A stretch of DNA of 51,204 nucleotides from an uncultured Erysipelotrichaceae bacterium. Its GTDB lineage: Bacteria; Bacillota_I; Bacilli_A; RF39; UBA660. A model generated the notes under the pieces. That model was given only the letters and a program-made list of their open reading frames with translations. It ran no database searches and had not been told where the DNA came from. The translations under genes were made by a program, and so were the position numbers. This document shows, piece by piece, positions 4,193 to 14,250 of this stretch; position 1 is the stretch's first letter; each line of letters begins with the position of its first letter. The stretch is from the NCBI GenBank assembly GCA_902795215.1, contig CADBKG010000007.1, positions 1 through 51,204 of the forward strand, read 5' to 3'.

Positions 4193-6202
4193 ATGAAAAA
4201 CGTTATCATCGTCGAATCTCCAAGCAAAACAAAAACAATATCTAAATATCTTGGAAACGACTATAAAGTAGTATCATCAAAAGGACATATTAGAGATTTA
4301 GCAACTACGGGGAAATTTGGCCTTGGAATTGACGTTGAGAATGATTTTGAACCTACATACATTCCAATAAAAGATAAGAAAAAACTAATTAGTGATTTAG
4401 AAAAAGAAACAAAAAATGCTAAAGTTTATTTAGCATCCGATCCTGATAGAGAAGGAGAAGCTATAAGCTGGCATTTAAAAGATACTTTGAATTTACATAA
4501 TTATGAAAGAATAGTTTTTAATGAAATAACAAAACCAGCAGTACTAGAAGCACTTAAAAATCCAAGAGATATCGATATGGATTTAGTTAAGTCTCAAGAA
4601 ACTAGAAGAATGCTTGATAGAATTATTGGTTTTAGATTATCTAAACTTATGCAATCTAAAACAGATGGAACAAGTGCGGGTAGAGTTCAATCAGTAGCGT
4701 TAAAACTAATCGTTGATAGAGAAAGAGAAATCGCTGCTTTTAAAGAAGAAGAATATTGGACAATTAAAGCTTTATTTGAAGGCTTTGAAGCAACATTAAT
4801 TAAATATTTAAAAGAAGATATTGAAATAAAAAGTGAAGAAGAAGCAGATAAGATAATAGATTCTTTATCTAAATGTTTTAATATTGATTCGGTTGAAACA
4901 AAACTAAAAAATAAAAAAGGTGTAATGCCATTTACAACAAGCACCCTTCAGCAAGCAGCTATAAATATGCTTAACTTTAATTCAAGTAAGACAATGCGTA
5001 TAGCTCAAAAATTATATGAAGGTATAGACATAGGCTCTGAAACAACAGGTATCATTACATACATGCGTACAGATTCAACAAGACTTTCAGGTGTATTTAC
5101 ATATCCAGCGATGGAATATATCGAAAAAACATATGGTAAAGAATATGTTGGAAACGTAAAAGTAGCTAAGAAAAATGATAACGTACAAGACGCGCATGAA
5201 GCTATTCGTCCAACAGATATAACAAGAACACCTGATTCAATTAAAGAATATTTATCAAATGAAGAATATAAATTATATAGTTTAATATATTATAGAACTC
5301 TTGCATCATTAATGAAAGATGCTAAAGCACAAAGTACAATTATAACTTTAGAAAACAATGGTTATATTTTTAAGGCTACTGGAAGTGTAATTGTTTTTGA
5401 TGGATATTTAAAAGTATATGGTAAATATTCTAAACAAGAAGACGTTATTTTACCAGATTTAACTAATCTTAAAACTAAAATTGTAATTGCAGAAGACATA
5501 GAAAAAGAACAACATTTCACTAAACCATCACCTAGATATACAGAAGCAAGTTTGATTAAAGAAATGGAGTCACTTGGAATTGGTAGACCTAGTACATATG
5601 CAAAAACAATGGATACTTTAAAATTTCGTAATTATGTGTATATAGAAGATAAAAAGTTTATTCCAACTGAAATTGGTTTTGAAATAACTGATAAATTACA
5701 GGAAGCATTTAGTGATATTATAAATGTTAAATATACTGCTAAGATGGAATCTGATTTAGATAAAGTCGCTGAAAATAAATATGATAATATAAAACTGTTA
5801 AAAGACTTTTTCAATAAATTTGAACCTTTGGTAGAATCTGCCTTTAAAACAATGGAGAAAAAAGCCCCAACAAAAACTGGTGAAATTTGTCCAGAGTGTG
5901 GTGGAGATTTAGTTGTTAGAAAAGGGAAATTTGGTGAATTTGTGGCATGCTCAAATTATCCAGAATGTAAATATATCAAAAAAGAAGAAAAGAAAATATA
6001 TGCAGAGTGTCCTAAGTGTCATGAAGGAAATATAGTCGCTAAAAAAACAAAAAAAGGTAAAACTTTCTATGGATGTGACAACTTTCCTAAATGTGATTAT
6101 GCATTATGGGATGAACCAACTGGAGATTTTTGTCCAAATTGTAATATGCTTCTTGTTAAAAAAGGGAAAAAAGTTTATTGCCCTGAGTGCGATAAAAAGT
6201 AA
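4193..6202 (+). CDS. topA: DNA topoisomerase I
   Basis: Type IA topoisomerase that relaxes negative supercoils by single-strand passage. It opens with the Toprim signature (VIIVESPSKTKTI) and has the SDPDREGE acidic block. The catalytic tyrosine is Y290 in ITYMRTDSTR. Three C-terminal Cys-rich zinc ribbons follow: CPEC...CSNYPEC, CPKC...CDNFPKC and CPNC...CPEC. The length of 669 is close to the Bacillus enzyme. The ATG follows the previous stop directly, so it is co-transcribed with the LTA-synthase-like gene. A strong terminator ends the unit. Confidence 0.97.
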   Translation: MKNVIIVESPSKTKTISKYLGNDYKVVSSKGHIRDLATTGKFGLGIDVENDFEPTYIPIKDKKKLISDLEKETKNAKVYLASDPDREGEAISWHLKDTLNLHNYERIVFNEITKPAVLEALKNPRDIDMDLVKSQETRRMLDRIIGFRLSKLMQSKTDGTSAGRVQSVALKLIVDREREIAAFKEEEYWTIKALFEGFEATLIKYLKEDIEIKSEEEADKIIDSLSKCFNIDSVETKLKNKKGVMPFTTSTLQQAAINMLNFNSSKTMRIAQKLYEGIDIGSETTGIITYMRTDSTRLSGVFTYPAMEYIEKTYGKEYVGNVKVAKKNDNVQDAHEAIRPTDITRTPDSIKEYLSNEEYKLYSLIYYRTLASLMKDAKAQSTIITLENNGYIFKATGSVIVFDGYLKVYGKYSKQEDVILPDLTNLKTKIVIAEDIEKEQHFTKPSPRYTEASLIKEMESLGIGRPSTYAKTMDTLKFRNYVYIEDKKFIPTEIGFEITDKLQEAFSDIINVKYTAKMESDLDKVAENKYDNIKLLKDFFNKFEPLVESAFKTMEKKAPTKTGEICPECGGDLVVRKGKFGEFVACSNYPECKYIKKEEKKIYAECPKCHEGNIVAKKTKKGKTFYGCDNFPKCDYALWDEPTGDFCPNCNMLLVKKGKKVYCPECDKK

Positions 6203-9075: not shown

Positions 9076-9624
9076 ATGAATAAAGAGAAGGGATTACAAA
9101 CACTTATAATTGCTGTACTTGCTATTGCAATACTTATTATGTCTGTAGGTTTCGCTGCCTATTCACAAACATTAAATATTAATGGTACAGCTACAGTTAA
9201 GAGTGCAAATTGGAAGGTGCATTTTGTAGATACTACTTATGCAGAAAGTACTGGTAGTGTACAGGCTACATCAAAAACAATTACTGATACTGATGTTACA
9301 TATACAGTTACACTAAACAAACCAGGTGATTTTTATGAATTTTCAATTAACGTAAAAAACTCTGGTACAATTGATGCTAAATTACAAAGCATAACTATGT
9401 CTGCATTAACTGCTGCACAAGCTAAATATTTAACTTATAAGTTAACTTATGATGGAACAGATTATAATGCTACAACAACTGGACTATCTAATGCATTAAA
9501 TGCAAGTGCAACAAAGACTGTTAAAGTAAGAGTAGACTATGTTCAACCAGAATCAAGTGAAGACTTACCTGCCTCTGATGCAACTGTAACATTAACTGCA
9601 TCACTTGATTACGTTCAAGCATAA
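9076..9624 (+). CDS. SipW-type secreted protein (TasA/camelysin-like signal region)
   Basis: A 182-residue protein. The signal segment (about residues 8-28) ends VGFAAYSQTLNINGTATV, the typical form of substrates cut by SipW-type signal peptidases, such as TasA and many archaeal and Firmicute surface proteins. The mature part is Thr/Ala/Ser-rich, likely all-beta, and lacks Cys. The start at 9076 is chosen for its AGGAGGA Shine-Dalgarno and promoter; the open frame extends upstream into the HerA-like gene without support. The signal peptidase gene lies just downstream past a terminator. I infer an abundant surface or fibre subunit; similarity to TasA outside the signal region is not evident. 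Confidence 0.75.
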   Translation: MNKEKGLQTLIIAVLAIAILIMSVGFAAYSQTLNINGTATVKSANWKVHFVDTTYAESTGSVQATSKTITDTDVTYTVTLNKPGDFYEFSINVKNSGTIDAKLQSITMSALTAAQAKYLTYKLTYDGTDYNATTTGLSNALNASATKTVKVRVDYVQPESSEDLPASDATVTLTASLDYVQA

Positions 9625-9673: not shown

Positions 9674-10801
9674 ATGAAAAAGAATACTAGAGGGATAAAC
9701 TATTTACTTATAGAATTGTTAATATCAGTCCTTGTTTTTACTTTTATGTTTAAAGGTCAAGTAAGAATGTATACAATAACAGCATTAATGGTTATATATG
9801 CAGTATGCATGATTAAAAGATTTGGCTTAATGAAGGATAATAACTATTTAAAATCATACGTAAATAGGATAGTAATTGCCACTTTGATGGCATTCCTTCT
9901 AGTAATATATTTTGTAGGATTATTTTTAGGATTTAAAGAAAATATTATTGAAATAAAATCATTAAATATTTTAAAAATAGTATTACCATTAATTATATTA
10001 ATAGTATCTCAAGAACTAATTAGATATATAATTGCAAGAAATAATCAAAAAGAGAAAAAACCACTTATTGTATATGCATTTATAATGATAATTGTAGATA
10101 TAATAATGCATTCATTTATGTATAATTTCCATAGTAGAGAAGAAGTATTTATATTTATTAGTTTAATAATTCTTCCAAGTATTGCTAAAGAAATGTTATC
10201 AAGTTTTCTTGTATATAAATGTAGCTATGTACCAAGTCTTATATATAGACTTGCTATAGGTTTATATGCATATGTATTTCCAATAATACCGAATTTGGGA
10301 AATTATCTAACTGCAGTAGTGGATATATTTTTACCATTTACAATATATTACTTTTCAGCTAGGACAATAAGAAAGCATGAAAAGGAAGGATTGTATTACA
10401 AAAAAATTATTAAAAGGATTGTATACGTTCCTCTTCTTGTAATGGTATTAATAATAACAAGTTTAATAACTGGAATATTTAAATATAAACTAATTGCAAT
10501 AGGATCTAATTCTATGAACCCAACATATGTTCGTGGGGATGCAATCATATATGAAAAAGAAAAACCTAAAGATATCGATGTGGGAGATATTTTGGTGTTT
10601 AAAAAAGATGGAAGATTAATAACTCATAGGGTTGTTAAAAAAACCAAAGTAAATGAAAAAGTATATTTTTATACTAAAGGGGACGCTAATAAAAGCGTTG
10701 ACAATTTTAAAATAAATGAGGAAGAAGTTGTTGGAAAAGTTGATCTAGTAGTTAAATATGTAGGTTATCCAACACTTTGGATTAGAGAAGTAACAGAATA
10801 A
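9674..10801 (+). CDS. sipW: SipW-type (ER-type) signal peptidase I
   Basis: Membrane signal peptidase using a Ser-His dyad instead of the usual Ser-Lys. The catalytic serine is S280 in SNSMNPTYVRGD and the histidine is H318 in LITHRVV. The N-terminal 270 residues hold several membrane segments, far more than Bacillus SipW, making the protein 375 residues long. AAGGAGAAAG precedes the ATG. Its neighbours are exactly the expected partners: two proteins with SipW-type signal regions (9076 and 11905) and a DUF5305-like protein. It should cut these at the membrane outer face. Confidence 0.9.
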   Translation: MKKNTRGINYLLIELLISVLVFTFMFKGQVRMYTITALMVIYAVCMIKRFGLMKDNNYLKSYVNRIVIATLMAFLLVIYFVGLFLGFKENIIEIKSLNILKIVLPLIILIVSQELIRYIIARNNQKEKKPLIVYAFIMIIVDIIMHSFMYNFHSREEVFIFISLIILPSIAKEMLSSFLVYKCSYVPSLIYRLAIGLYAYVFPIIPNLGNYLTAVVDIFLPFTIYYFSARTIRKHEKEGLYYKKIIKRIVYVPLLVMVLIITSLITGIFKYKLIAIGSNSMNPTYVRGDAIIYEKEKPKDIDVGDILVFKKDGRLITHRVVKKTKVNEKVYFYTKGDANKSVDNFKINEEEVVGKVDLVVKYVGYPTLWIREVTE

Positions 10802-10813
10802 AAAGGAGGACTT

Positions 10814-11902
10814 ATGAGTGCAAAAAGAAAAATAATCACAACTAATATTATACTTATTATACTTGTAATTCTTTTTGTGCTTGCAGGGGGATATTTCCTA
10901 AATAAAGGCTTCAAAAATTACAAAACAGTAAGTATTACATATGATGAAAATAATGAAGTTCATTATAAGGTATATTTAAAAGAAAACAATTTCTTTGATG
11001 AGCCATATCTTAATGAAAATAGAACATATATAACAAATTTAATAAATTATATAAATGTTGATTATAAGTATGATATTAACTTTAATAAGAAAGTAAGTGG
11101 TAATTACTCATACTATATAAGCGCTACTATTGAAGCAGATAAATCCGGGAATGAAGAAGGAATATATTGGACAAAAGAATATATTTTAACGGATGAAAAA
11201 CAACTAGAAGTAACAAATGTTGATTCATATACTATAATCGAAAATTTAAATATTGATTATCAGAAATATAATGAAATACTAAATGATTTTAAGAAAAGTG
11301 TTGGAATAACATTGGATGGAAAACTAATATTAAGTTTAGTTGTTAAAAATAATCTAACAAACAAAAGCTTTTCAGGTGAAAAAATAGATTTACCTGATAA
11401 GTCAAATATTTCACTTTCTATTCCACTTTCACAGCTTGCAGTAGAAGCGAGTGTTGATACTAATGCGGATAATTCTCATAAAACAATAACAAAAACTATT
11501 AAAGAAAAAGATGTTAAATATATAATATATAAAATTTCTGGTTTCTTGCTTATAATCAGCGGTATATATGGAATATTATATATAAGAAGAAAAAATAATG
11601 AATATAGAGTTAAGTATAATTACGAAATAGTTAAAAATAAGATATTGAATACTTATGATAGTATAATTGTTAATGTAAAATCTTCTCCAAATGTATCTAA
11701 ACTTAATTGTATGAAAGTAGAAAGTTTTGAAGAATTAATAGATGCACATAGTGAAGTAAGAATGCCAATTAATTTTTATGAATCCAAGACTAAAAAAGAA
11801 TGTATATTTACACTTATACATGAAAATAAAGCATGGCAATATATATTAAAATCTAATAACGAACAAGATAATAAAAAAAATAAGAAAACTAATACGAGGT
11901 AA
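10814..11902 (+). CDS. DUF5305-like membrane protein of the SipW cassette
   Basis: A 362-residue protein with one membrane segment near the N-terminus (about residues 9-30). A long, likely beta-rich extracytoplasmic part follows, then a second membrane segment (about 236-257) and a cytoplasmic C-terminal domain of about 100 residues. Both layout and neighbourhood fit the DUF5305 family, which commonly sits beside SipW-type signal peptidases. AAGGAGGAC precedes the ATG, 12 bases after sipW, so it is co-transcribed. Its function is unknown; a role as partner or chaperone of surface-protein maturation is only inference. Confidence 0.65.
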   Translation: MSAKRKIITTNIILIILVILFVLAGGYFLNKGFKNYKTVSITYDENNEVHYKVYLKENNFFDEPYLNENRTYITNLINYINVDYKYDINFNKKVSGNYSYYISATIEADKSGNEEGIYWTKEYILTDEKQLEVTNVDSYTIIENLNIDYQKYNEILNDFKKSVGITLDGKLILSLVVKNNLTNKSFSGEKIDLPDKSNISLSIPLSQLAVEASVDTNADNSHKTITKTIKEKDVKYIIYKISGFLLIISGIYGILYIRRKNNEYRVKYNYEIVKNKILNTYDSIIVNVKSSPNVSKLNCMKVESFEELIDAHSEVRMPINFYESKTKKECIFTLIHENKAWQYILKSNNEQDNKKNKKTNTR

Positions 11903-11904
11903 AA

Positions 11905-14250
11905 ATGAAAAAGAAAATATCATATTTAATTTTGTTTTTACTTTTATTTGTTTTCTCTTTTTTAACAGTTGGTTATGCTTTATATTCTAAAAACTTAGGA
12001 ATAAGTGGGAATGTTAGACTAAAGTCACAAGGCGATGTTTATATTGCAAATGTTATTTTATCAGATAGCTCTAATCTAACAAATGCTAGCAATCCAGAAT
12101 TCACAGATACGAGTATTGATTTTAATTTTGAATTCAATGGTGAAGGAATGAACGATACTTACTTTGCAGAGTATGATATTACCATTGTAAATGATACTTT
12201 TTATGATTATGAATTTGGTTCTAGTAAATTCACACCCGATATAAGTTTTGGTGAGACAAATAATGCAACAATAGACTTTACTTTTGAGGATATAACAGAA
12301 GGAGAAATTATTCCATCTGGAGGAAGTAAAACATTTAAACTTATTGCAACTTTAACGCCACTTGATGATAGTGGATCATATTCGGGTTCTGGTTCAGTTG
12401 AAGCTGATTTAAATGAAAATCCAAAAGGAAATATGCTTGGAAGTGTAACAAGTACAAACTCTGGTGATTTAACAGGTTCTACTATTACAGGACCATTCAC
12501 AGCAGAAATAGTAAGTACATTTGAAAATTCTAAAACATTTACCCTTAAAACTAATAACGAAAATTTTGAAATAGTACTTGCAGATGGAACGCCTGCCACA
12601 TATTCAATAGATGCTAATAGCACGAGTAGTTATAATTTTTATATTAAACAAACAAATAACAAACTATTTGCAACTTCACCACAAAATATATCTGTAAACT
12701 TAGAAACTAGTGGTCTAATGAATAGATATATTGGATCAGTTGATGTTGATGTAAATATAGATACTACTGTAAATGATACAGATCCACCTGTTATAAGTAA
12801 CGTTTCAGTAACTCAAAGTTCTACTAATGGAGAAGTCACACTTTCTTGGACAGGAACTGATGAAAATTCTATTGATTACTATAGCGTTTTAATATATGAA
12901 GTCGCAGGAACTACTGAAACATATAAAAGAAAAGTTGATACTAATGGTGATGAAACAAATATAACGATCACAGGACTAGAAGAAAAAACATATGTATTTA
13001 AGGTTTATGGTACTGATGAAATACCAAATACAGCGAGTGAAGATCAAATTGCAAAGGCTACTACTAGTTCAGGTGTATGCGTAAAAACTACATCAAAAAC
13101 ATTTAAATGGATTTATAATCTTACAATAGATAATTCCTTAACATCAGCCAATTATACCGCGGCTAATGCAACAACTCCATCATATATGCAAACTTTTTCA
13201 ACAACACTTAGAGGAACAGGATGGAATGGAAGCAACTCCCATCCAAACGAGGACAGATTATCTATTTCTATGGGAGGCAGTACTTTATCTTCAAGCAAAT
13301 ATAGTTATAATGAAAGCACAGGATTACTTCAAATACCAAATGTAACAGGAGACATAACAATTGGATATAATTCCGCAACTTGTTTAATAGAAGGAACTAA
13401 AATAAGACTTGCAAATGGAAAATATAAAAACATAGAAGATATAGATTATGACGATTTAGTAGCATCTTGGAATTATGAAACAGGAAAACTATCAAGTGCA
13501 TATCCAATATGGATAGAAAAAACAAGAGATTCTAAAAGCTATATTAAAGTTACTTTTGATGATAAAACAACGCTTGGAATAGTAAATAATCACGGACTAT
13601 TTGATATAGATAAAAATGAATTTATAGATTTAAATGATTTAAAAGTAGGTACAAATATAGCTAAAATAAATGAAGATGGAACTATTAATAAAGTAAGAGT
13701 AACAAAAATAGAAACTATAAAAAAACAAGTTAATTACTATCATGTAGTTACAACATATAATTATAATTTAATTGCTAACGATATTTTAACTACAGATGAT
13801 ATGGTTATGCTATCTAATTTATATGGCTTTGATAAAAACATTAAATGGCCAAGTATAAGAAAAGAAGCTTTAAAAACAAATGATTATACTTATAAAGACT
13901 TTAAAGGCGTAGTGCCAAAATATATGTATGAAGGTTTAAGAGTAAAAGAAGTTAAAATACTAGTTGATAATAAATATCTAACGCTTGATGAATTTAAATA
14001 TTATTTAAAGACAAATCAAAACAATAAAGATATGGTTAAAAAACCAATAAGAAAACTTGGTAAGAACTACTGGCCAGTATCTATTGATAATAAAAAATAC
14101 AAACTAGTAAAAGAAGGATCATACTATACTTTACCAAACAGCAAAAACACAGTATTCATAGATTCATCAAATAATAAAAAATATAAACCGGGTGAAAAAG
14201 TAAAAGTATGGCATGGTATACATTTTATTGAAGTAACAAAAAGATTATAG
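11905..14250 (+). CDS. SipW-type surface protein with Fn3 and Hint domains
   Basis: A 781-residue secreted protein. The signal region (residues 6-30) ends in TVGYALYSKNLGISG, the SipW-substrate form. A beta-rich TasA-like part follows, then a fibronectin type III-like domain (about 293-390) and another beta region. A Hint (Hedgehog/intein-like) domain starts at C493 (ATCLIEGTKI). H563 in VNNHGLF and the closing YNLIANDIL near 620-628 fit Hint blocks, although the canonical terminal HN pair is absent. The C-terminal ~55 residues resemble short InlB-type wall-repeat modules. It starts 2 bases after the previous stop. Hint domains cleave or rearrange peptide bonds, so self-processing or crosslinking at the surface is possible. 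Confidence 0.8.
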   Translation: MKKKISYLILFLLLFVFSFLTVGYALYSKNLGISGNVRLKSQGDVYIANVILSDSSNLTNASNPEFTDTSIDFNFEFNGEGMNDTYFAEYDITIVNDTFYDYEFGSSKFTPDISFGETNNATIDFTFEDITEGEIIPSGGSKTFKLIATLTPLDDSGSYSGSGSVEADLNENPKGNMLGSVTSTNSGDLTGSTITGPFTAEIVSTFENSKTFTLKTNNENFEIVLADGTPATYSIDANSTSSYNFYIKQTNNKLFATSPQNISVNLETSGLMNRYIGSVDVDVNIDTTVNDTDPPVISNVSVTQSSTNGEVTLSWTGTDENSIDYYSVLIYEVAGTTETYKRKVDTNGDETNITITGLEEKTYVFKVYGTDEIPNTASEDQIAKATTSSGVCVKTTSKTFKWIYNLTIDNSLTSANYTAANATTPSYMQTFSTTLRGTGWNGSNSHPNEDRLSISMGGSTLSSSKYSYNESTGLLQIPNVTGDITIGYNSATCLIEGTKIRLANGKYKNIEDIDYDDLVASWNYETGKLSSAYPIWIEKTRDSKSYIKVTFDDKTTLGIVNNHGLFDIDKNEFIDLNDLKVGTNIAKINEDGTINKVRVTKIETIKKQVNYYHVVTTYNYNLIANDILTTDDMVMLSNLYGFDKNIKWPSIRKEALKTNDYTYKDFKGVVPKYMYEGLRVKEVKILVDNKYLTLDEFKYYLKTNQNNKDMVKKPIRKLGKNYWPVSIDNKKYKLVKEGSYYTLPNSKNTVFIDSSNNKKYKPGEKVKVWHGIHFIEVTKRL

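Follow-up and report, generated by a model that had tools for sequence, protein, structure and literature searches.

A four-gene SipW unit and the protein that ends it

The stretch of DNA analyzed here (the window) comprises 51,204 nucleotides from an uncultured Erysipelotrichaceae bacterium (GenBank assembly GCA_902795215.1, contig CADBKG010000007.1). At 11,905-14,250 of its forward strand lies an intact open reading frame of 781 amino acids, exactly where the initial annotation had placed it, which encodes a Hint-bearing secreted protein as judged from the ORF, Pfam searches, and structural models. The gene is the fourth and last of a unit in a single orientation. The first gene (9,076-9,624, forward strand) encodes a small TasA-like protein with a SipW-type leader (SVGFAAYS) and no Pfam match over the cut-off, and is followed on the same strand by a SipW-type signal peptidase (9,674-10,801; TIGR02228, E 4.4e-25) and a DUF5305 protein (10,814-11,902; PF17231, E 8.9e-13). 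The order TasA-like, SipW, DUF5305, Hint is identical in all eight loci compared (L017-L024, which are eight of the nine loci in the set, L025 being left out), with homologs of each of the three upstream genes at 8/8 loci. In one of these loci a second TasA-like, SipW, and DUF5305 set directly follows the Hint unit (L020:7093-10675); its DUF5305 ORF is 566 amino acids long and it has no second Hint match. Eight matches to SipW-type peptidases and five to sortases were found in genome G000 (1.34 Mb).

The first 25 residues of the Hint protein (11,905-11,979, forward strand) form a SipW-type leader that ends in TVGYA-L-Y, with a predicted cut at A25|L26 that places Tyr27 at P2′. Leader residues G23 and A25 are invariant in the nine aligned homologs, and the aromatic residue at P2′, read from alignment A2, is retained in 9/9 proteins. 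A study of TasA describes a leader with an aromatic P2′ residue as a poor substrate for LepB that is cut by SipW (PMC10269814). Such a leader, together with a SipW gene nearby, makes SipW-dependent secretion the predicted route for the Hint protein, and the SipW-type signal region recognized by the initial annotation is thus borne out.

Residues 26-288 (11,980-12,768) are modeled as strands of two predicted beta-sandwich regions, the first of which appears to be TasA-like; many small SipW-leader proteins also match the first ∼170 positions of the Hint protein. An Fn3 module follows at residues 290-403 (12,772-13,113), with VIA Z scores of 11.7-12.2, or about 12, to Fn3 chains, which supports the Fn3 module previously noted ahead of the Hint domain. 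A small beta domain, recognized from the model and the alignment (residues 404-492; 13,114-13,380), ends in ...VTGDITIGYNSAT and leads directly into the Hint domain at residues 493-633 (13,381-13,803). The 148 residues between position 633 and the stop, which the initial annotation had put at about 150, are divided between a conserved helical extension (residues 634-705; 13,804-14,019), seen as helices in the model and as a profile match in distant relatives, and a beta tail (residues 715-781; 14,047-14,247) that is conserved in close homologs, has no Pfam match, and presumably resembles InlB B-repeats. All of these features lie on the forward strand. The AlphaFold model of the whole protein, built with nine sequences as input, places them in the same order, namely beta-sandwiches to residue ∼288, Fn3, small beta domain, Hint, helical stretch, and beta tail, but its pTM is only 0.42, so the packing of the domains against one another is unreliable.

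Fold and predicted active site of the Hint domain

Modeled alone, the Hint domain and its tail reached a pLDDT of 85.1 and a pTM of 0.84. Foldseek searches of the PDB with this model gave a best E of 9.5e-10 and 63 chains at E ≤ 0.001, and all 50 of the chains listed are inteins, bacterial intein-like (BIL) domains, or Hedgehog proteins. VIA comparisons agreed, with the best match to Tetrahymena BIL2 (Z 17.0, rmsd 1.8, 140 aligned residues), followed by the Hint domain of Drosophila Hedgehog, 1at0 (Z 15.5, rmsd 1.9, 138 aligned), and a BIL domain of C. thermocellum (Z 15.4, rmsd 1.7, 132 aligned), although many of the top-ranked chains differ by no more than 1-2 Z. These lists barely probe the parts outside the Hint domain, so no new fold is claimed for the extension. 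A profile match to BIL2 was also obtained (E 9.8e-5), whereas the single protein falls below the cut-off of Pfam Hint PF01079 (E 0.058, 13.4 bits against 29.7) and matches TIGR01445 weakly (E 0.11). The sequence evidence for Hint is therefore weak for any single protein, real with a profile, and clear by fold, and it is the fold that places the domain in the HINT superfamily; the structure prediction proposed as a check on the Hint-like domain returned a true Hint fold and not an unrelated one. A weak Pfam AXH match to Hint residues 495-554 (13,387-13,566; E 0.0004, below cut-off) was set aside as chance or distant beta similarity, since Ataxin-1 chains scored E 0.25-0.47 only.

Structural pairing equates residue 493 with intein residue 1 and Hedgehog residue 258, while residue 631 falls on residue 440 in the RecA intein of Mtu, which we take to be its terminal Asn. 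C493 thus occupies the nucleophile position and D631 that of the Asn. C493 opens the motif CLIEGTKI, H563 lies within VNNHGLF, and the domain closes with YNLIANDIL, all as first described; the canonical terminal HN is likewise absent, with TTD in its place.

Conservation was read from matches to the profile of alignment A1, which among the loci collected comprised 66 ORFs that reduce to 58 distinct rows, 29 close (>200 bits, some of them near duplicates) and 29 distant. Identity to the window protein over the Hint domain and tail is 41-51% in the nine rows of A1 itself. The predicted nucleophile C493 at Hint position 1 (13,381-13,383) and the block B histidine H563 (13,591-13,593) are each present in 29/29 close rows; loss of either in close homologs had been named beforehand as the result that would count against the annotation, and none was seen. 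The block F asparagine N621 (13,765-13,767) is equally invariant, as are W536 and D553, while the pair T630-D631 (13,792-13,797), which replaces the intein His-Asn, is somewhat less so (T in 27/29, D in 23/29). E538 (13,516-13,518) is retained in 28 of the 29 close rows. All of these codons are on the forward strand. The residue at -1 to C493 is unconserved. Among the 29 distant rows, position 493 is Cys in 23, Ser in 2, and unaligned in 4, and position 563 is His in 25, Gln in 1, and unaligned in 3. Position 538 is mixed in the same rows (V 5, D 4, E 4, K 4, and others). Viral copies of the domain have Lys or Met there, as read from the alignment, so E538 is not a general property of the Hint module.

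Two further elements of a Hint active site are missing. The Thr of the block B TxxH is absent at -3, where the window protein has V560; a Thr occurs at -4 in 19/29 close homologs, with Ile at that position in the window protein, and the block B turn may contain one extra residue. The block F Asp is replaced by His, Phe, or Tyr in most close rows, mainly His. An N-S shift might therefore proceed slowly or not at all.

The position of E538 was compared with Hedgehog in six MAFFT runs (three modes with two row sets), and in all six Hedgehog residues C1, D46, and H72 paired with C493, E538, and H563. An hhalign comparison of A1 with a single Hedgehog sequence returned a low-probability and wrong alignment, and MAFFT was used instead. 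In two reviews, Hedgehog Asp303, which is D46 in this numbering, is the general base, required for transesterification, dispensable for the N-S shift, and called specific to Hedgehog (PMC4695875, PMC9163320). Parts of a further study place the same residue in SHH, D243, in an active site shared with C198, T267, and H270, and describe this site as adjoining a two-helix sterol recognition region (PMC7906309). A conserved helical extension follows the Hint domain of the window protein, and in distant relatives it closes the protein in the way that the sterol or adduct recognition region (SRR/ARR) closes Hog proteins; no similarity to the SRR itself was shown. Also against a full match with Hedgehog are the absent Thr at -3 and the block F Asp, which is mostly His.

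Distribution and other carriers of the module

The distribution of the Hint module is patchy. Counting the window's own genome in each case, matches were found in 11/196 relatives, in 23/386 genomes drawn from the family, and in 18/392 genomes drawn from the phylum. A full-length N-terminal part was present in five of the 196 genomes, all five with the Hint domain, which indicates that Hint is an integral part of the protein and not a mobile insert. In relatives that belong to other families within the class, the match to the profile extends beyond Hint across the ∼75 residues of the extension, and among the distant relatives listed, the protein ends 2-32 residues after the extension in 15/15 cases.

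The proteins that carry the module vary in how they begin. Many of the distant relatives also have a SipW-type leader, which a simple pattern detected in 13/22, 10/14, and 0/2 ORFs with uncut starts in three sets; one of the 13 (L025) is doubtful, and pilin-type, ordinary, and cut leaders are among those missed. Two type IV pilin-like proteins, L189 (G449:C45) and L196 (G277:C11), open with the pilin N_methyl motif (PF07963, E 2.4e-8 and 8.4e-8) and have a C-terminal Hint domain and extension. A single-sequence search of viral contigs returned no close relatives of the Hint protein, and a search of the same contigs with alignment A1 returned 83 relatives, of which 80 were kept. Seven loci on IMG/VR viral contigs (L106-L112) encode long proteins with Hint and a related extension near the C-terminus; by eye, some of these proteins have starts resembling tail fibers. 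In BFVD the best match, at 30% over 200 columns, was a Hint protein from a Gaeavirus, and phage records gave only two weak partial matches.

In two further loci, L074 (G180:C15:47000-57300) and L076 (G604:C2:50000-67000), a serine recombinase gene lies between two divergent SipW-leader/Hint cassettes. The L074 enzyme (4588-5202) is of the resolvase type (PF00239, E 7.8e-26) and the L076 enzyme was judged by eye; the recombinase gene of L076 sits between inverted repeats of 54 nt (76%) at 4862-4915 and 5708-5761. A phase switch is possible at both loci.

Proposed reaction and comparison with known Hint systems

In the best reading, judged somewhat more probable than not, the window protein serves a TasA/SipW-type fiber as an accessory subunit and ends in an autoprocessing module, in which an N-S shift precedes release or transfer of the N-terminal part. 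The Hint domain of this gut bacterium's fiber-type protein, with its key reactive residues kept in relatives, would thus probably cut the protein and might join the front part to something else, as Hedgehog does in animals. The protein would be exported and its leader cleaved by SipW, after which C493, aided by H563, would attack the T492-C493 bond from within in an N-S acyl shift, leaving the N-terminal part as a thioester at T492|C493. Without HN, the C-terminal chemistry of inteins and hence splicing would not occur; E538 would instead activate a second nucleophile that accepts the N-terminal part, either water, giving simple release, or a group of the envelope or fiber, giving transfer. 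The helical extension may shape how the thioester is reached, in the manner of the sterol recognition region of Hedgehog. The initial annotation had proposed that the protein cuts itself or attaches its N-terminal part to a nucleophile at the surface as an uncommon form of anchoring. Self-cutting or attachment stands as the best reading and is strengthened because E538 sits at the position of the Hedgehog general base. The anchoring part is not supported, as every one of the 34 genomes searched has sortases, whether or not it has the Hint protein, which rules out a sortase-less genome as an argument for anchoring by Hint. Hydrolytic release fits equally well and nothing identifies an acceptor; pilin-like and viral proteins carry Hint as well, so anchoring at the surface is not what the carriers of the module share. 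Anchoring may occur, but no observation favors it specifically.

A plainer self-cleavage like that of type B BIL domains, in which hydrolysis of the thioester or an added thiol frees the N-terminal part and E538 and the extension are structural, is a plausible though distinctly less probable account. Type B BILs, as defined in part of PMC4031507, have no block G and cleave in an uncoupled manner; block G is missing here too, and distant members keep the Cys and His without E538. Such cleavage would nevertheless leave unexplained both the acid retained in 28/29 close rows at the general-base site of Hedgehog and the conserved extension.

Doubtful, by comparison, is a Hint without catalytic activity that is retained at the ends of fiber and tail proteins for binding, folding, or chaperoning. 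Pilin-like and viral proteins, on which this module also occurs, commonly end in folding domains, and the block B Thr, the block F Asp, and HN are all missing from the window domain. What speaks for catalysis is that the Cys and His, the two most chemically telling residues of the domain, are the ones held invariant, and that three complete ORFs (L014, L023, and L038) contain no Cys other than the one at this position. A degenerate intein surviving as a relic of a mobile element has the intein-like fold in its favor and is very improbable, given the full-length N-terminal part accompanied by Hint in 5/5 genomes, the invariant key residues, and a conserved extension after Hint in place of a resumed extein; a mobile intein was rejected, as these five genomes yielded no Hint-less full-length ortholog. 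Least credible is C493 as a disulfide cysteine, its conservation then being silent on catalysis: the window protein does have one other Cys, 101 residues upstream of C493, yet L005 lacks the Cys at the Fn3 end, and the lone Cys of L014, L023, and L038 excludes a disulfide role in those ORFs and leaves C493 unexplained by disulfide bonding.

The autoprocessing reading can be widened to a bacterial modification like that of Hedgehog, which is offered tentatively and is unlikely as it stands. Hint and a recognition module would end fiber subunits of both SipW/TasA and pilin types, with the thioester at the junction, and a general base of the Hedgehog type (E538) would pass the subunit to one specific acceptor, whether a small molecule, glycan, lipid, or neighboring subunit, giving a covalent linkage independent of sortases. 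To our knowledge, Hedgehog in animals is the only well-established case of covalent self-modification by Hint that includes an adduct step. A bacterial module that shares both catalytic residues, has an acid at the general-base site and an extension of its own, and is tied to a fiber operon would offer a small bacterial protein in which to test where the Hedgehog reaction came from; extracellular fibers would have a route of maturation or linkage besides sortases, and a new tool for protein ligation might result.

The open-license PMC literature yielded no paper that links Hint to SipW, to TasA, or to a bacterial module of the Hog type. The operon resembles the TasA-TapA-SipW and CalY-CapP systems in combining a SipW-type peptidase with fiber-like SipW-leader proteins in one unit; those systems, in the parts of the descriptions consulted, have TapA or CapP as the accessory protein and are described without Hint. 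Inteins differ in the pairing of a C-terminal His-Asn with a +1 nucleophile, and with Thr-Asp at that place in most homologs, normal splicing is not expected. Polymorphic PT-HINT toxins and MafB are also bacterial secreted proteins with Hint toward the C-terminus, but no toxin domain was recognized after the window Hint, which is followed instead by the helical extension and beta tail. BIL domains give the best fold and profile matches; under the definitions given in part of PMC4031507, type A is excluded by the absent His-Asn, while type B shares the missing block G and the N-terminal Cys, and the window Hint differs from BIL domains in its fixed helical extension, fixed partner operon, and E538. 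The Hog part of Hedgehog shares the Hint fold, Cys at position 1, the block B His, an acid at position 46, the absence of HN, and the order of secreted N-terminal part, Hint, and C-terminal extension; unlike it, the window protein is bacterial, lacks the Thr at -3 and a Pfam Hint match over the cut-off, belongs to a family with Glu and not Asp at the general-base position, and carries, with its close family, an added beta tail. Lacking HN, TxxH, and the Pfam match, it is not filed as an intein, a type A BIL, or a Hog domain; it is a member of the Hint superfamily that, if active, would work in the manner of Hedgehog or of a type B BIL.
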